NCBI GenBank assembly: GCA_938009755.1
Contig: CALLIL010000054.1
Location: forward strand, 1-47,906
Reading direction: 5' to 3'
DNA length: 47,906 bases
From: an uncultured Marinomonas sp.
GTDB lineage: Bacteria > Pseudomonadota > Gammaproteobacteria > Pseudomonadales > Marinomonadaceae
Below the pieces are notes generated by a model. The model ran no database searches and had not been told where the DNA came from. It saw nothing but the letters and a program-made list of their open reading frames with translations. Of this stretch, positions 12,211 to 41,326 are shown piece by piece (within the stretch, counting starts at the first letter, position 1; each line of letters starts with the position of its first letter). Made by a program: the position numbers and the translations under genes.

Positions 12211-13128
12211 TTAGCCTTCGCTGTTTTTTTGAATCGGTCGACGGCTCCAATAACTGGACAATAAAGAGCCTGATATATTATGCCAAACACTGAAAATAGT
12301 GCCCGGCAAAGCGGACATAGGCGTAAAGAACTTCACCGCCAGCGCCGCCGCTAAACCAGAGTTTTGCAAGCCAACTTCAAAGGCAATCGTTCGACATATT
12401 TTCGCATCGAAACCAAGTAAGTAAGTCACCCAATATCCAAGCGTCAAGCCAATCGCATTATGCAAAATAACCGCAGCAGCGACGATCAAACCCACCTCAA
12501 CCAATTTAGAAGCACTTAGCGCCACAACAATGGCAATAATCAACACAATGGCAAACATAGAGATATACGGAAATACTGGCTCTATTTTTTGAACAAACGC
12601 CGAAAAGAAAGTATTAATGACAACGCCAATGGCAACGGGCAACAACACAATTTTCAACAAGCTCATCAACATAGAAGCCACAGGAACATCCACACTGGTT
12701 CCTATCATCAAAGACACAAGCAAAGGCGTCAGTAACACGCCAATCAAGGTTGAAATGGCGGTCATTGAAATCGATAAAGCGGTATCGCCTTTCGCTAAGT
12801 AGCACATAATATTTGACGATGTACCGCCAGCAACACTGCCCACCAACAACATACCAACGGTTAATTCCGTATCAAAACCAAACACCATTGCGATAGCAAA
12901 GGCGGTCACCGGCATCACTAAAAACTGCAATAAAACGCCGACACCTAAGGCTTTTGAGCTTTTTAAGACTTGTTTAAAGTCGGTTGGCTTTAGTGTCAGC
13001 CCCATCGCCAACATAATAATCATAAGCAAAGGAACAATCTGAGACTTTAGTCCGACAAAAAACGCGGGCTGGAAAAAGGCAAGTACTGAAAGCAATATTG
13101 CCCAAAGCGGGAAAAGCTGGATAACCAT
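12211..13128 (-). CDS. Bile acid:sodium symporter family (BASS) transporter
   Basis: A 305-residue inner-membrane protein with about ten hydrophobic segments. Motifs fit the BASS/SBF family: MIIMLAMGLTLKPTDF near residue 40, VGSVAGGTSSNIMCYLAKGD near 105 and FEVGLQNSGLAAALA near 250. Bacterial members carry sulfonates, keto acids or other organic anions with sodium; the substrate here is unknown. The ATG at 13128 was chosen because GGAG lies six bases upstream; a GTG 24 nt earlier has no ribosome site. A terminator follows. A MITE lies about 190 bp upstream of the start. Confidence 0.87.
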   Translation of the reverse strand: MVIQLFPLWAILLSVLAFFQPAFFVGLKSQIVPLLMIIMLAMGLTLKPTDFKQVLKSSKALGVGVLLQFLVMPVTAFAIAMVFGFDTELTVGMLLVGSVAGGTSSNIMCYLAKGDTALSISMTAISTLIGVLLTPLLVSLMIGTSVDVPVASMLMSLLKIVLLPVAIGVVINTFFSAFVQKIEPVFPYISMFAIVLIIAIVVALSASKLVEVGLIVAAAVILHNAIGLTLGYWVTYLLGFDAKICRTIAFEVGLQNSGLAAALAVKFFTPMSALPGTIFSVWHNISGSLLSSYWSRRPIQKNSEG

Positions 13129-13318
13129 GAAACACTCCAAGTATTCATTCACATTGTTCTCGATTCAGACGAAAAAAGTCGAATCCCTTCAAAATGTGAA
13201 TCATCAATTAATCATTACGAGTCCATTATATTGCCCTGTAATAAATTCTTTTTCGGATAGGTAAAAAGACGTATTAGAGTTAAGCCGTTAACGGAGTAAT
13301 GAAAACGGCTTATACTAA

Positions 13319-13582
13319 GGAAGATGCGAATAAGTCTTCTGAGCGTCAGTCTTATCAGAGAAACGGTTTATCAAAGCAAAAGTGAGTAGGAATGTTAATA
13401 CCTTTCAATCACTCTTAACACAAAGAAACCGTTTCCCTGAAAAACCCGAAGGGCGTGGGCTAAACGCTTTTTATTCTTTGTTAAGCTTCTTGCCAATATG
13501 TTCAATATTGGACGGCGAAGCTTGCCTCGAAAAATAAAGGTTTATCCACACGCTGAAGCCAGAGGACTTGTTCGTACCTTCC
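13319..13582 (+). mobile_element. IS5-type MITE, long copy (264 bp), downstream of comM
   Basis: Ends are terminal inverted repeats, GGAAGATGCGAATAAGTC on the left and the complement of GGAAGGTACGAACAAGTC on the right. A 4-bp direct repeat CTAA flanks the element (13315-13318 and 13583-13586). The termini resemble those of the IS5 group, which duplicates YTAR targets. No ORF is present. Internally there is a hairpin CCAATAT-GTTCA-ATATTGG nested in AAGCTTC/GAAGCTT. Apart from a 65-bp extra segment at 13365-13429 it is about 97% identical (6 substitutions) to the inverted copy at 15188-15386. Confidence 0.85.
13356..13439. repeat. Interrupted central palindrome in the long MITE copy
   Basis: Arms CAGAGAAACGGTTT (13356-13369) and AAACCGTTTCCCTG (13426-13439) pair with one mismatch and enclose a 56-nt loop. 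In the short MITE copy the same place holds a compact palindrome CAGAGAAACCGTTTCTCTG (read on its minus strand) with no loop. So the two copies differ exactly at this dyad, either by insertion here or by palindrome-mediated deletion there. Confidence 0.75.
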
Positions 13583-13633
13583 CTAAATAAATGGTGGCTG
13601 GATTATAAAGAAATATTCACAAATTTAAACGCC

Positions 13634-15145
13634 TTAAGACGAGACTGCCATAGACAAGGTTTTTTCCATTTTCCGATAGCTCAATGATTCCATTAAATGC
13701 GCTCTTGTCACGGGAGAGTCATTTAAATCCGCCAAGGTTAAAGCCACTTTTAACACTCTATGATAAGCACGAGCGGACAGTTTTAAGGTTTCTAACGCTT
13801 GCTGCATAAAGTGTTTATCCTCGTCGCTCAAGGCACAGATACTTTCCAACTGCCGCCCGCTCAATAAGGCGTTTTGTACGCCTTGTCGCTCCCGTTGTCT
13901 TGCAACCGCGCGTTCCACTCTTTCACGAACGCTGGCGCTGCACTCCCCTTCTTCTTGAGCGTTGACCAAAATGGTTGAAGGCAATGGCGGCACTTCCACA
14001 TGCAAATCAATTCGATCAAGAAAAGGCGCGGACAGTTTCTTTAAGTACTTTTGGCTGGCGCTGGATTGGTAATAGTCTTGTCCGCCATTGTAAGCTTCAT
14101 TGCTCGCGTTCATCGCGGCAACTAATTGAAACCGCGCGGGGAAGGTGACTTGACCTCGTGCTCTGGAAATATGCACTTCGCCATTTTCCAAAGGCTCTCT
14201 TAACACTTCCAAGACTTTACGATCAAACTCTGGCAATTCATCCAAAAATAGAACACCGCAATGGGACAAAGAAGCTTCACCCGGTTTTGGTATGGAACCG
14301 CCTCCAACAAGCGCCGCAGCAGAACAAGAATGGTGCGGCGATCGAAAAGGACGCTCGGACCAGAACCAATCTAAGCCCATTTTTCGTCCTGCCACAGATT
14401 GAACCGACGCAACGGCTAAGGCTTCTTGCTCTGTCATCGCTGGCATAATACTTGGCAGACGTGACGCCAACATGGTTTTGCCCGTTCCCGCTGGGCCAAT
14501 AAACAAGAGATTATGACCGCCAGCCGCCGCGACTTCTAGGGCTCGCCTTGCTTGATATTGCCCCTTCACATCGCGCATGTCTTTATGATCCAAAGGTAAC
14601 GTCGCAACGGGCTTTAGTTCGCAGTTGGGCAATGAAGACTGTTTTAATAAATGCGCCGTTACTTGAGTTAAGTGGTTGGCAAACACTGCATTGCTCTCAA
14701 CCAACGCAGCTTCTTGCTGATTATCCTCAGGTAAAATAAGCTGTCGGTTCGCCGTATGACACGCAATGGCGGAAGGCAGCAAGCCAGGAATACCTCGAAT
14801 ATCGCCAGACAACGCCAGTTCGCCGATAAACTCCACATCACCTAAATTCATCTCACCAAGCTGACCAGACGCGAGCAGCACACTGATGGCAATCGCCAGG
14901 TCATAACGTCCGCCTTCTTTAGGAAGATCCGCGGGGGCAAGGTTGATCGTCACTCTTCGAGTGGGAAATTCAAAATGACTGTTGATAATAGCGCTACGAA
15001 CACGATCTTTTGCTTCGCGTACGGCCGCTTCAGGCAAGCCAACGATGTTTAAAGAAGGTAGCCCGTTTGAAATGTGCGTTTCAACGGTGACTAATGGGGA
15101 AGATACGCCCACTCGGGCGCGGCTATATATTGTGGCTAAACTCAT
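13634..15145 (-). CDS. comM: ComM/YifB family Mg-chelatase-like AAA+ ATPase
   Basis: A 503-residue protein with an N-terminal Lon-protease-like fold domain (about residues 1-180, beginning MSLATIYSRARVG). A Mg-chelatase AAA+ module follows, with Walker A GPAGTGKT near residue 220 and Walker B GVLFLDELPEF near 300. The C-terminal Mg-chelatase domain covers the last 100 or so residues. ComM is a hexameric branch-migration helicase that extends heteroduplex during natural transformation. The ATG at 15145 has AAGGAG five bases upstream; the longer in-frame reading is not preferred. The gene is intact, although comM is a known insertion target for genomic islands in other bacteria. It lies exactly between two inverted MITE copies, with about 40 bp between the start and the nearer element. 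Confidence 0.93.
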   Translation of the reverse strand: MSLATIYSRARVGVSSPLVTVETHISNGLPSLNIVGLPEAAVREAKDRVRSAIINSHFEFPTRRVTINLAPADLPKEGGRYDLAIAISVLLASGQLGEMNLGDVEFIGELALSGDIRGIPGLLPSAIACHTANRQLILPEDNQQEAALVESNAVFANHLTQVTAHLLKQSSLPNCELKPVATLPLDHKDMRDVKGQYQARRALEVAAAGGHNLLFIGPAGTGKTMLASRLPSIMPAMTEQEALAVASVQSVAGRKMGLDWFWSERPFRSPHHSCSAAALVGGGSIPKPGEASLSHCGVLFLDELPEFDRKVLEVLREPLENGEVHISRARGQVTFPARFQLVAAMNASNEAYNGGQDYYQSSASQKYLKKLSAPFLDRIDLHVEVPPLPSTILVNAQEEGECSASVRERVERAVARQRERQGVQNALLSGRQLESICALSDEDKHFMQQALETLKLSARAYHRVLKVALTLADLNDSPVTRAHLMESLSYRKMEKTLSMAVSS

Positions 15146-15187
15146 GATCACTCCTTGATCTCGTTTGTTCACTTCGTACTATGTTAA

Positions 15188-15386
15188 GGAAGGTACGAAC
15201 AAGTCCACTGGCTTCAGCGTGTGGATAAACCTTTATTTTTCGAGGCAAGCTTCACCGTCCAATATTGAACATATTGGCAAGAAGCTTAACAAAGAATAAA
15301 AAGCGTTTAGCCCACGCTCTTCGGGTCTTTCAGAGAAACGGTTTCTCTGATAAGACTGACGCTCAGAAGACTTATTCGTATCTTCC
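15188..15386 (-). mobile_element. IS5-type MITE, short copy (199 bp), between ubiK and comM
   Basis: An inverted copy of the element at 13319-13582. Termini GGAAGGTACGAACAAGTC (plus strand) and GGAAGATACGAATAAGTC (minus strand) match at 16 of 18 positions. Direct repeats TTAA flank it (15184-15187 and 15387-15390), agreeing with the YTAR target rule of IS5-group elements. It holds the same internal hairpins and no coding sequence. It separates ubiK from comM, so any native read-through or promoter for comM must cross or lie inside it. Confidence 0.85.
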
Positions 15387-15426
15387 TTAAGGCAAGCATC
15401 CTGCTCGCCTTTTGTTTTTCATAAAG

Positions 15427-15666
15427 TTAACGCTTTTCTTCGATTTCTGCCAAACGCGTTTCTAATGCAGCCAGCTTTTCTCGATATTTTGCCAACATGG
15501 CTTCTTGCACTTCAAACTCTTCTCGTGTGACCAAATCCATTTTACTCAACGTATTACGAGCCACCTCATGCAACTGCGCCTGAATTTCTTCTTTTGGTAA
15601 TTTGCCTAAGGTTTCAGCAGCTTGCTCTAACCCTGTTCCAAACTGTTTAATAAATTGATCAATCAT
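15427..15666 (-). CDS. ubiK: Ubiquinone biosynthesis accessory factor UbiK (YqiC/BMFP family)
   Basis: A small 79-residue protein. The N-terminal half (MIDQFIKQFGTGLEQAAETL) is amphipathic helix and the C-terminal half (LVTREEFEVQEAML to the end) a coiled coil, as in the YqiC family that trimerises and aids aerobic ubiquinone synthesis with UbiJ. The start at 15666 is chosen because the family begins at this Met; the upstream in-frame extension to 15747 is not family-like. Family members commonly neighbour glnK-amtB and comM, as here. A MITE lies 36 bp after its stop. Confidence 0.88.
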   Translation of the reverse strand: MIDQFIKQFGTGLEQAAETLGKLPKEEIQAQLHEVARNTLSKMDLVTREEFEVQEAMLAKYREKLAALETRLAEIEEKR

Positions 15667-15976
15667 GTGTTTCACTTTAAATCGAAATGCGGATGTTATA
15701 ACCCATAGTATAGAGCGCGATAAACGGAACAAACAAGGCACCATCAATAAGATTCATAGTCCAAAGCGCAATTTATCGCACCCACTGCTACTCTGTGCAT
15801 GCATAAGAGCAGACCCAAGTTAATAAAAGCATTCCCGATCAGTGCACAAAAAACAACCAACAGAACCCTTTATAAAAGCAAATCAGCAGGTTTCTCTTCT
15901 TCGTTTTGTTAAAAGCGGATTTTTTCTAGCTTAAGCAACAAGATAGAAAAGAATAGCGGTGCCATTGCGATCAAGC

Positions 15977-36949: not shown

Positions 36950-38374
36950 ATGCGCATTGATAAGAACTTCATAAATAATGCTTTCTCCAGCTCTGCGGAC
37001 AACACGAGCATTCCTGTGTACAGCCCAGTAACTGGAGCGCTTATTTCTCAAGTGTCTTCTGCTTCAACAGACGAAGCATTAGCGGCGGTAGACAGTGCCG
37101 CAGCAGCGCAAAAAACATGGCGTAAGCTAACCAGCATTGAACGTGCTGGTTACATGCACAAGCTGGCAGACGCCTTAATGGCACGTAAAGACGCTATCGG
37201 TGAAGCCCTTGCGAATGAATCAGGTAAAAGCTTGGAAGATGCCACAAACGAAGCCACTTATGCGGCCGATATCACACGTTATCATGCAGAATGGGCACGT
37301 CGTATTGAAGGTGAAATCATCCCAAGTGATACACCAAATGAAAATCTATTGCTGCAACGCGAGCCAATCGGTGTTGTCGCATGCCTTATTCCTTTTAACT
37401 ACCCTGTCTATACGCTATTGCGCAAAATCGCGCCCGCTTTGATTACTGGCAACGCGGTAGTGGTTCGCCCAAGTAACAACACACCAAACTCAGCCTTTGA
37501 AATTGCCAAAGCAATTCAAGACGCTGGCATTCCTGCAGGTATCGTAAACATCTTAACCATGGATCACGCCACAGCGGAAAGTGTTTGTACGCATCCTAAA
37601 GTCGGCATGATAACGCTAACTGGCAGTGTTGGCGCAGGTCGTAAAGTCTTGGAATACTCTCAAGTGAATATTGCCAAATCGTCTCTTGAACTGGGCGGTA
37701 AATCCCCTGCCATCATCGAAGCCGATGCGGATCTAGAAAAAGCCGCACAAGACATCGTTGGTTCAAAAACCACCAACTGTGGTCAGCTTTGTACCGCCAT
37801 TGAACGCGTTTATGTTAATGAAGCAATTTACGACCAATTTGTTGATTTGCTTCGTACCAAAATGAAAGAACGTCAATTTGGTGATCGTGCGGTAAACCCA
37901 AGTTTCATGGGCCCATTAATCAATGAGAATGCCCGCATCAACATTCACCAAATGGTGGAACGTGCCATTGATGATGGCGCAACACTAGAACTAGGCGGTT
38001 ACGTTCCTGAAGGCGCGGGGTATTTTTACCCACCAACTTTATTAACGAATTGCCGCCAAGACATGGAAATCGTCCAAGAAGAAATCTTCGGCCCCGTTTT
38101 ACCTGTTTTGAAATACAGCAACATTGATGAAGCACTAGAGTTAGCCAACGACCACCAGTTTGGTCTTGCGTCTGTTGTCTACACTGAAAACTACCGTACC
38201 GCCATGACAGTAGCCAACAACATAGAAGCAGGCGAAGTCTACATTAACCGCACACCTTCTGATCCATACCAAGGTTATCACGCGGGTTGGAAACGTTCTG
38301 GTCTAGGTGGTGATGACGGCAAACACGGCATGTTGGATTACACCCAAACACGCTTGGTTGTATTGAACTACTAA
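36950..38374 (+). CDS. NAD(P)-dependent aldehyde dehydrogenase
   Basis: A 474-residue ALDH with CLIPFNYPVYTLLRKIAPAL near residue 143, TLTGSVGAGRKVL near 223, catalytic Glu in SLELGGKSPAII and catalytic Cys in NCGQLCTAIERV near 280. It resembles lactaldehyde/sugar-aldehyde dehydrogenases (AldA type) more than betaine or fatty aldehyde enzymes, but the substrate cannot be set. First gene of an operon with an enolase-superfamily enzyme (46 nt downstream) and a GMC oxidoreductase. Controlled probably by the divergent IclR. Confidence 0.9.
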   Translation: MRIDKNFINNAFSSSADNTSIPVYSPVTGALISQVSSASTDEALAAVDSAAAAQKTWRKLTSIERAGYMHKLADALMARKDAIGEALANESGKSLEDATNEATYAADITRYHAEWARRIEGEIIPSDTPNENLLLQREPIGVVACLIPFNYPVYTLLRKIAPALITGNAVVVRPSNNTPNSAFEIAKAIQDAGIPAGIVNILTMDHATAESVCTHPKVGMITLTGSVGAGRKVLEYSQVNIAKSSLELGGKSPAIIEADADLEKAAQDIVGSKTTNCGQLCTAIERVYVNEAIYDQFVDLLRTKMKERQFGDRAVNPSFMGPLINENARINIHQMVERAIDDGATLELGGYVPEGAGYFYPPTLLTNCRQDMEIVQEEIFGPVLPVLKYSNIDEALELANDHQFGLASVVYTENYRTAMTVANNIEAGEVYINRTPSDPYQGYHAGWKRSGLGGDDGKHGMLDYTQTRLVVLNY

Positions 38375-38420
38375 ACATTAAAAACCAAACATACGTGCCG
38401 AATTTTAAAAGGACCTCCAC

Positions 38421-39659
38421 ATGAAAATAACCTCCTGCGAAACGCACATTGTCGCCACACCTCCTCCTCATGTTGGCGGAATGTACTGGATATTCGTACG
38501 CTTAAAAACCGCTTGCGGCATCGAAGGCGTGGGCGAAATTTACGCTGCAACCTTTCACCCAGAAGTGGTTAAAAAAGCCGTTGAAGACGTGTTCGACCGT
38601 TACCTAAAAGGCTATGACCCTCACCATGTAGAACGCTTTTTCCGTGAAACTTATTCCAGTGGTTTCACTCAACGACCAGACCTTACCATGATGGGCATCG
38701 TCAGTGGTTTAGAAATGGCTTGCTGGGACATTATTGGTAAAGCGGCAAACAAGCCTGTGTACGAATTGATCGGCGGTAAAGTGCACGATAAGTTACGTTG
38801 CTACACTTACCTTTATCCTTTAGACCGTGACGGCAGCTACAACTACGACAACGTTGAGTTAGCCGTAGAAGCGGCCATCATCGCCAAAGAGCAAGGTTTT
38901 ACAGCGGTAAAGTTTGACCCAGCAGGCCCATATTCTGCGTATTCAGGTCAAATGATTTCTTTGGAAGCCATGGACAAGTCTGCCACCTTCTGTCGTCGAA
39001 TTCGCGAAGTCGTTGGCAACAGTTGTGATCTATTGTTCGGTACTCACGGACAAATGACACCAGCGTCTGCGATTCGTTTAGCAAACTACTTAGAGCCTTT
39101 TGACCCAATGTGGTACGAAGAGCCCGTACCGCCAGGACAAAGTGAAGCCATGGCACGCGTTGCGTCTAAAACAACCATCCCAGTTGCGACAGGCGAGCGC
39201 TTAACCACAAAATACGAATTCCACGATGTCTTGAAGCACGGCGCTGCGTCCATTTTGCAAATGAACCTTGGTCGCATTGGCGGTATTTTGGAAGGCAAAA
39301 AAATCGCTGGCATCGCAGAAGCCTATTACGCACAAATTGCCCCTCATTTATACAATGGGCCAATTGGCGCCGCGGCAAGTATTCAGCTTGCAACCGCCAC
39401 GCCTAACTTCTTGATTCAAGAAAGTATCGGAACATGGGACGGTTTCCATGCCGACGTTCTGCAAGAAAAGATCGAATGGCGCGATGGCTATATTATTCCA
39501 TCTAAAAAACCAGGCTTAGGCGTCGAATTAAACATGGAAGTGGTAAAAGCCTGCTCACCCTATAAAGGCCAAACATTGCATTTGTCCATGGACCCAAAAC
39601 CATACGATGTGAAAGACGAATCGTCTACGGATTGGAAAACCATCCCCGCTGCGAAGTAG
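38421..39659 (+). CDS. Mandelate racemase/muconate lactonizing (enolase superfamily) enzyme
   Basis: A 412-residue enolase-superfamily protein: N-terminal capping domain to about residue 125, then the TIM barrel. Visible barrel motifs are AVKFDPAGPY near residue 160 (a Lys on strand 2), GTHGQMTPASAIRLA near 212, the metal-ligand Glu in WYEEPVPP near 235, ATGERLTTKYEF near 260 and a His in APHLYNGPIGAAAS near 310. Enzymes of this type dehydrate sugar acids or open sugar lactones. Flanked by an aldehyde dehydrogenase and a GMC oxidoreductase, it probably acts on the acid formed by oxidising an alcohol or aldose. Exact substrate unknown. AAGGACC precedes the ATG. Confidence 0.88.
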   Translation: MKITSCETHIVATPPPHVGGMYWIFVRLKTACGIEGVGEIYAATFHPEVVKKAVEDVFDRYLKGYDPHHVERFFRETYSSGFTQRPDLTMMGIVSGLEMACWDIIGKAANKPVYELIGGKVHDKLRCYTYLYPLDRDGSYNYDNVELAVEAAIIAKEQGFTAVKFDPAGPYSAYSGQMISLEAMDKSATFCRRIREVVGNSCDLLFGTHGQMTPASAIRLANYLEPFDPMWYEEPVPPGQSEAMARVASKTTIPVATGERLTTKYEFHDVLKHGAASILQMNLGRIGGILEGKKIAGIAEAYYAQIAPHLYNGPIGAAASIQLATATPNFLIQESIGTWDGFHADVLQEKIEWRDGYIIPSKKPGLGVELNMEVVKACSPYKGQTLHLSMDPKPYDVKDESSTDWKTIPAAK

Positions 39660-39709
39660 CTGAACCTGAGTAACGGTAAAAAAGCCTTGGCTTTATAGAG
39701 GAAAAGACA

Positions 39710-41326
39710 GTGGAATACGATTTCATTATTGTGGGCGCTGGGTCGGCAGGTTGCATTGTCGCCAATCGACTTAGCGAGTCTGGACAACATTCTGTTTTAT
39801 TGATCGAAGCGGGTGGCAAAGACGCCTCGCCTTGGATCAAACTTCCTGTCGGGTTTGCCAAAACCTATTACAACCCGACATACAATTATATGTATTACAG
39901 TGAAGAAGAAGCAGAATTGGCTGGGCGCAAACTGTACGCTCCTCGAGGCAAGGTGCAAGGCGGCTCTGGCTCCATTAACGCAATGATTTACGTACGTGGC
40001 CAAGCCGCTGACTTTGATGATTGGGCTGCCGCTGGCAACGAAGGTTGGTCTTACAAAGACGTTTTGCCTTACTTTAAAAAGCTTGAGCAACACCCAGCTG
40101 GCGATACGGAATATCATGCTAGCAATGGCATGATGGGTATTTTCCCAATGAAAGACGACGCGCATCCTATTTGTACGGATTACCTCAAAGCAGCGGAAGA
40201 ACTCGGTTACCCATTGAATGACGATTTTAATGGCGAGCATTTCGAAGGCGCTGGTATTTACGAAGCCAACATTAAAAATGGCCAACGTGATTCCAGTAAC
40301 ACCGCCTACTTGAAACCCGCACTGTCCCGTTCGAATCTGGATTTAAAACTCGTCAGCATGGTTGAGAAAGTCCTGCTCGATGAAAACAACAACGCAACTG
40401 GTGTGCAAGTCATTCATCAAGGCGGTATGGAGGTTTACCATGCAAAACGCGAAGTGATCTTATGCGCCGGTGCAGTAGACTCCCCGAAATTACTGCAACT
40501 GTCTGGCATTGGCGACACAGAACTCTTACAGAAACACGACATAGAAGTGAATCATCACTTACCTGCGGTTGGAAAAAATCTGCAAGACCATTTGTGTGTC
40601 AGCTATTATTATCGTGCCAACATCAAAACGCTAAACGATGAATTCTCCTCCTATTGGTCACAGGCCAAAGCCTTGGGGCAATATGTCATCAACCGCACTG
40701 GCCCTCTTTCCATGAGTGTGAATCAGGCGGGTGGATTTTTAAAAGGCGCAGATGACGAGCCATTGGCCAACATTCAGCTTTACTTCAATCCGATGTCTTA
40801 TCGCATTCCCAATGACCCAAAAGCCAACATGAAACCTGATCCTTACTCTGGCTTTCTAGTGGCTTTTAACGCTTGTCGTCCGACCAGTCGCGGCACCATT
40901 GAAATCGCCTCCAATAATCCAATGGATGCGGCATTGATTAAGCCAAACTACTTGTCTACCGAAGAAGATTATAAAGAAGTGCTGCAAGGCAGCCGTTTGA
41001 TCAGAAAATTGATGGACACTGAAGCGCTGCAAGCGGTCACCGAAGAAGAAGTGATTCCGGGCAAAGACGCCGTATACGACGACGACACCATGATGACATA
41101 TTACCGTGAAAACGCAGGATCGATTTATCACCTATGTGGCTCTTGTGCCATGGGCCCCAGCGCGAAAGACTCTGTGGTAGACAGCCGATTAAAAGTACAC
41201 GGAATACGTAACCTGAGAGTAATCGATGCCTCTGTTTTCCCAAACATCACGTCTGGCAATGTGAATGCGCCAACCATGATGGTCGCCGAAAAAGGCTCAG
41301 AAATGATTCAAATGGACCACAATTAA
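39710..41326 (+). CDS. GMC-family FAD-dependent alcohol dehydrogenase
   Basis: A 538-residue glucose-methanol-choline oxidoreductase. The FAD motif is DFIIVGAGSAGCIVANRLSE at residues 4-23, the GMC signatures are GKVQGGSGSINAMIYVRG near 80 and GAVDSPKLLQLSGIGD near 255, and the active-site His is in GSIYHLCGSCAMG near 470. It oxidises a primary alcohol, possibly the first step before the aldehyde dehydrogenase of the same operon. It starts at a GTG with AGAGG eight bases upstream. Choline as substrate is possible but the betaine genes are absent. A strong terminator follows. Confidence 0.91.
   Translation: MEYDFIIVGAGSAGCIVANRLSESGQHSVLLIEAGGKDASPWIKLPVGFAKTYYNPTYNYMYYSEEEAELAGRKLYAPRGKVQGGSGSINAMIYVRGQAADFDDWAAAGNEGWSYKDVLPYFKKLEQHPAGDTEYHASNGMMGIFPMKDDAHPICTDYLKAAEELGYPLNDDFNGEHFEGAGIYEANIKNGQRDSSNTAYLKPALSRSNLDLKLVSMVEKVLLDENNNATGVQVIHQGGMEVYHAKREVILCAGAVDSPKLLQLSGIGDTELLQKHDIEVNHHLPAVGKNLQDHLCVSYYYRANIKTLNDEFSSYWSQAKALGQYVINRTGPLSMSVNQAGGFLKGADDEPLANIQLYFNPMSYRIPNDPKANMKPDPYSGFLVAFNACRPTSRGTIEIASNNPMDAALIKPNYLSTEEDYKEVLQGSRLIRKLMDTEALQAVTEEEVIPGKDAVYDDDTMMTYYRENAGSIYHLCGSCAMGPSAKDSVVDSRLKVHGIRNLRVIDASVFPNITSGNVNAPTMMVAEKGSEMIQMDHN

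Follow-up and report, generated by a model that had tools for sequence, protein, structure and literature searches.

Target duplications of IS5 follow YTAR, according to the passages of PMC10359306 that deal with target sites. Non-autonomous relatives of such elements have been described in archaea, where the IS5-family MITEs treated in the relevant part of PMC3852290 are short, lack a transposase, occur in several to many copies and resemble their autonomous partners mostly at the ends, over less than about 20 nt, a limited resemblance that the same part presents as usual. Mobile insertion cassettes and an Aeromonas MITE with 4-bp direct repeats and 17-bp ends, as portrayed in the pages of PMC5444012 that concern them, are likewise non-autonomous, have inverted ends and lie near a gene. 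The transformation gene comM is also met by mobile DNA: AbaR islands interrupt it in Acinetobacter, and in two Acinetobacter baumannii strains covered in the pertinent part of PMC7508600, restoration of the interrupted gene raised transformation about 300- and 1000-fold.

Here we describe a locus of an uncultured Marinomonas sp. at which a mobile element is again found at comM. It lies in a window of 47,906 nucleotides, the whole stretch of DNA that was analysed, from a genome (G000) of 2.52 Mb in 122 contigs that is 77.9% complete. Unlike the AbaR insertions as PMC7508600 depicts them, the elements in Marinomonas are intergenic and leave comM intact. They differ from the archaeal MITEs featured in PMC3852290 in sequence and in host, the Marinomonas family spanning many species of one genus, and from the mobile insertion cassettes outlined in PMC5444012 in that comM appears to be no passenger, the two copies representing separate insertions around a gene that sits beside its usual neighbour. 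We consider it very probable that one non-autonomous MITE of the IS5 group, mobilised in trans, was inserted twice beside comM.

Two inverted copies of one element flank an intact comM gene

The comM/yifB gene (13634–15145, reverse strand), which encodes an Mg-chelatase-like AAA ATPase, is an uninterrupted frame of 503 aa that scores above the cut-offs of both TIGR00368 and PRK09862. Downstream of it lies the left copy of the element (13319–13582, reverse strand), 264 bp in length, with its GGAAGGTACGAACAAGTC end towards comM and with the target duplication CTAA on its outer side (13315–13318) and on its comM side (13583–13586). Upstream of comM lies the right copy (15188–15386, forward strand), 199 bp in length and bordered by the duplication TTAA on its comM side (15184–15187) and on its outer side (15387–15390). 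The two copies are inverted relative to each other and, when aligned, are identical at 193 of 199 shared positions, the other six being substitutions; the right copy is without one internal 65-bp block, located between two inverted stretches. A sequence-only reading of this DNA had described an intact comM between two near-identical, inverted, non-coding elements, each with 18-bp terminal repeats and a 4-bp duplication (CTAA, TTAA), and had pointed out that a mobile element thus precedes a transformation gene. That description proved correct to the base in its coordinates and in the count of six substitutions over 199 bp. A distance of 42 bp, in which the duplication is counted, separates the right copy from the comM start codon.

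The 18-bp ends form imperfect inverted repeats, in which 15 of 18 positions pair in the left copy and 16 of 18 in the right. A degenerate pattern of these ends, allowing up to three mismatches, matched the window at exactly the four ends, with 0.14 matches expected, a weak test of chance since the pattern was derived from the same four ends. The stronger case against chance comes from further copies elsewhere in the genome and the genus.

The element belongs to a family dispersed in Marinomonas

A search for such copies, as the sequence-only reading had recommended, was productive. With the right copy as query against 56 genomes, matches were obtained in 22 of the 35 genomes of the same genus (its own included) and in none of the 21 from other genera; the genus set used later comprised 48 genomes, 13 of which were outside this search. 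In G000 at least 10 pieces matched, spread over 7 places, of which 5 had both ends. Because such per-genome match counts appear to be lower bounds, the end pattern served to gauge copy number; in the complete genome G013 it had 84 matches with up to two mismatches, versus 0 for the reversed control. With up to three mismatches, G000 had 17 matches versus 15 for the control, so that only near-exact sites are informative there.

We studied 40 copies with both ends, two from the window, three from the rest of G000, 20 from G013, 14 from G020 and one from G033; truncated copies are under-counted in this set, because its members were chosen by recognisable ends. A script had located 84 end pairs. 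Of these, 32 were dropped because they used an internal look-alike of the end, situated 88 bp away from the true one, and a further 12 mostly as alternative pairings of kept copies or as chance pairs. Those 12 also included three short elements of G013 and G033 (112 bp, flanked by TTAC/TTGT; 139 bp, TAAA/TAAA; 63 bp, TTAT/TTAA); two short elements of G000 (106 and 93 bp) were retained. Identical 4-bp flanks border 20 of the 40 copies (8 TTAA, 8 CTAG, 4 CTAA), or 18 of 38 when the window copies are left aside, against a background of 0.5%; they are absent from the remaining 20. With up to one mismatch allowed, the flanks agree in 32 of 40 copies. YTAR is present on at least one side in 39 of 40, the background for YTAR at one position being 1.7%; both backgrounds were taken from random positions in the same loci.

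Copy length clusters at 262–264 bp (26 of 40 copies), 264 bp being commonest (14 of 40), which makes the left copy a standard member of the family and the right one a derivative by internal deletion. Compared with called frames of at least 70 aa, no copy was flagged as lying entirely within one, and 6 of 40 overlapped one in part; the orientation of the 40 copies relative to neighbouring genes followed no clear pattern. An Rfam search of positions 12900–15800 yielded no family at its gathering score, and the left copy had no match at E values up to 1e-5 among 72,556 plasmid and 50,697 phage records. By eye, two sites in G013 (C1, 294539–294592 and 3563405–3563455) have MITE end pairs 51–54 bp apart, possibly minimal remnants. 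One G013 copy (L167, 2476–2519) carries its outer end plus TTAA in tandem, 26 bp apart.

Copies from different species are close to each other. Identity of the right copy reaches 94.5% with the 14 copies of G020, averaging 92.7%, and 91.0% with those of G013. The corresponding maxima for the left copy are 92.4% and 90.2%; G000 has a third full-length copy, for which identity with G020 copies reaches only 90.5%. The comM DNA is 74% identical to that of both G020 and G013, and uvrD 79% and 78%, respectively; uvrD was used in place of a comparison stretch of the window (36950–41326) that had no match in G020 and matches of about 100 bp in G013 and G002. Since the copies are thus more alike between species than comM and uvrD, their sequences suggest recent activity of the MITE or its transfer between species, as gauged by a thin yardstick of two genes. 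In a tree of 48 copies the two window copies are sisters (support 0.92), the pair being without firm placement among the G020 copies. Their sister relation suggests a local hop as their origin or, alternatively, homogenisation by gene conversion.

Our literature searches on Marinomonas MITEs, Marinomonas IS5 transposases and IS5-MITE duplications, made by title in a limited library, turned up no earlier report. As far as this literature goes, the family is new and the kind of element is known. The present analysis puts on record a family of IS5-group MITEs dispersed in Marinomonas; otherwise, a genus-wide MITE inserted twice beside comM is ordinary genome wear.

Relation to IS5-group elements

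The copies combine matching terminal repeats, 4-bp YTAR duplications, dispersal and the lack of a transposase gene, features of an IS5-group MITE, and at 264 and 199 bp they are too short to encode transposases of 323–326 aa such as those of the Marinomonas loci L145 and L150. In the genus, DUF772 transposases (PF05598) are present in 37 of 48 genomes. Among 30 such loci that we fetched, 20 have a pair of MITE-like ends 700–2200 bp apart, in 16 of them at 1145–1190 bp; identical 4-bp flanks border five of these 20 pairs and conform to YTAR in four of the five. At least one end within 1–4 mismatches of the degenerate pattern was found in 21 of the 30 loci, and six had no MITE-like end within four mismatches. 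In three loci (L148, L149 and L150), one end is identical to GGAAGATGCGAATAAGTC, the outer end of the left copy in the window. The transposase of L150 scores 351.5 bits with NF033581 (IS5 family; cut-off 140) and is 73–75% identical to plasmid-borne IS5/ISKpn26 and Marinobacter transposases among the matches listed.

Like IS5, ISKpn26 and the Marinomonas elements of L145 and L148–L150, the MITE has 18-bp ends of the GGAA...-type and, where intact, 4-bp YTAR duplications. It differs from them in having no transposase gene, in measuring 264 bp rather than about 1.17 kb and in an interior that is unrelated beyond short stretches. The assignment to the IS5 group made by the sequence-only reading is thus borne out by the ends, the YTAR duplications, the many copies and the occurrence in the genus of IS5-group elements with the same or similar ends. 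That reading had also suggested a search for a full IS5-family element with the same termini. Several IS5-group elements of the genus do end in the same 18 bp or in similar ones, but none has the interior of the MITE. Stretches of at most 23 bp are the only interior matches between the MITE and the 30 fetched loci, and on this measure the fetched elements were rejected as its parent. No PF05598/NF033581 transposase was detected in G000, a 78%-complete draft, or in the many-copy genomes G013 and G020.

The element was presumably mobilised in trans by a transposase of the IS5 group. Such a transposase would recognise ends of the GGAAGRTRCGAAYAAGTC type and would have inserted the element beside comM at two YTAR sites. 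The right copy has lost its internal 65 bp, either before or after it was inserted.

comM retains its ancestral neighbour and orientation in the genus

According to the sequence-only reading, the arrangement could allow comM to move as a unit or to flip by recombination. The closest relatives of the comM product are from Marinomonas, with 92–94% protein identity for most of the top matches. In the window, the upstream neighbour of comM is a BMFP-family gene (PF04380; 15427–15747, reverse strand), as it is in relatives, and this arrangement of the two genes, in both order and orientation, recurs in 23 of 23 Marinomonas loci (in one of which, L084, comM was matched in part only). The MITE had no match at E values up to 0.01 in these 23 loci. 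An empty site at base level was sought in the relatives and none was obtained, the non-coding flanks being too diverged.

A single gene bracketed by two inverted copies does resemble a composite or mobile-insertion-cassette-like unit, in which the two MITEs would have carried comM as a passenger, and cassettes of this sort exist (in the portion of PMC5444012 devoted to them). A carried unit would, however, share one duplication between its outer ends, whereas in the window a separate matched duplication borders each copy, and the outer flanks are CTAA on one side and TTAA on the other. We therefore do not regard comM as a carried unit, and the conserved position beside the BMFP-family gene likewise contradicts the proposal that it moved as one; the passenger reading retains next to no probability.

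The copies could also serve as an invertible switch, if homologous recombination between them turned comM on and off by flipping it. Besides the overall identity of their shared positions, they have an identical run of up to 63 bp, enough in principle for RecA, and their sister placement in the tree is something that gene conversion could produce too. However, comM was seen in one orientation only, in the window as in the 23 relatives, which lack the repeats, and a flip would separate the gene from its upstream region. On balance we find such a switch highly improbable, and we retain two separate insertions of the MITE beside a comM gene that stayed in place.

The right copy separates comM from its former upstream region

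The most likely functional effect is a local one: the right copy parts the comM ribosome-binding site from its former upstream sequence, which may alter comM expression. We compared the region with 47 comM leaders fetched from genomes of the genus, in 46 of which (all except L252) the start motif was found. A fuzzy sequence motif located a TIGR02450/DUF2389-like frame upstream of comM, on the other strand, in 41 of the 46 leaders; the protein of L212 was confirmed against TIGR02450 and PF09493. This gene is absent from the window, as judged by comparing positions 15391–15426 with the relatives, and had no match in the rest of the incomplete G000; the same query matched G027, G013 and, away from the comM locus, G020. 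Because the TTAA pair around the right copy is intact, the insertion itself seems not to have removed the gene.

Between the divergent TIGR02450-like frame and comM, 38 of the 46 leaders (L206–L251) contain a TACG-N16-[AG]GAT motif set in a palindrome. The distance from TACG to [AG]GAT is 20 bases in 37 of these and 21 in the other; as rows were accepted for any distance of 14–26, the spacing of 20 is a result. All 38 leaders with the motif carry the TIGR02450-like frame, three have the frame without the motif and five have neither. Around the motif core, 207 of 266 cells were pairable, compared with 92–130 in a slid control and, with shuffled arms, a mean of 171 and a maximum of 190 in 2000 trials, controls that leave some sequence relatedness in; some rows pair poorly. 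The motif may serve the TIGR02450 gene as a promoter, the comM leader as a hairpin, or both; in its TACG-N16-GGAT form, it might be a CsrA-type hairpin or an ECF-type promoter of the divergent gene. In many of these leaders (L206–L251), the comM ribosome-binding site, GATCA-AGGAG-TGATC, is itself a short palindrome, which could sequester it.

Just beyond the right MITE, and overlapping its outer duplication by two bases, the window has a hairpin, AAGGCGAGC-AGGAT-GCTTGCCTT (15389–15411, reverse strand), with a 9-bp stem, the loop AGGAT and no TACG at the corresponding distance. Judging from its position, loop and stem, this hairpin is probably the counterpart of the palindrome in the relatives, now parted from the comM ribosome-binding site.

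The right copy could thereby alter comM expression in a way that matters, through a terminator, a promoter or disruption of the leader. Its end 42 bp before the start codon, the likely counterpart beyond it of the palindrome found upstream in many relatives, a terminator-like site inside it on the comM strand (15322–15298) and the folding energy of this region's RNA on the comM strand (−110.1 kcal/mol, z −8.4) are in keeping with an effect. However, palindromic elements fold strongly whatever they do, a promoter-like site was not found inside the right copy, and in positions 13100–15500 neither terminator-like sites (2 versus 3.1 in shuffles) nor promoter-like sites (4 versus 3.1) stood above the shuffled sequences. 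We regard a consequential effect on expression as a tentative proposal, somewhat more apt to be wrong than right. Such an effect would matter in view of the increases of about 300- and 1000-fold in Acinetobacter noted in the excerpt of PMC7508600 cited above, although comM is intact here, and the locus offers a ready means of testing if transformation is affected by a MITE that precedes comM. A more elaborate scheme, in which the MITE between the conserved hairpin and the ribosome-binding site rewires control of the comM leader while the inverted copies exchange or invert comM, giving strain-level switching of transformation, seems to us very unlikely.

Apparently interrupted comM genes in other Marinomonas

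That comM is a site for islands is already known from AbaR, as the part of PMC7508600 concerned with these islands reports. In three of the 48 Marinomonas genomes (loci L253–L258; G011:C9, G065:C9 and G019:C23), comM matches fall into two parts about 22–33 kb apart, as if the gene were interrupted by an island. Inspected by eye, the junctions have apparent 5-bp duplications, with TGTAAG-type ends in two cases. In the G011 island, a TnsA-like frame (PF08722, PF08721) lies next to a frame that has weak Mu/rve-type hits, and from these predicted products the island looks Tn7-like.
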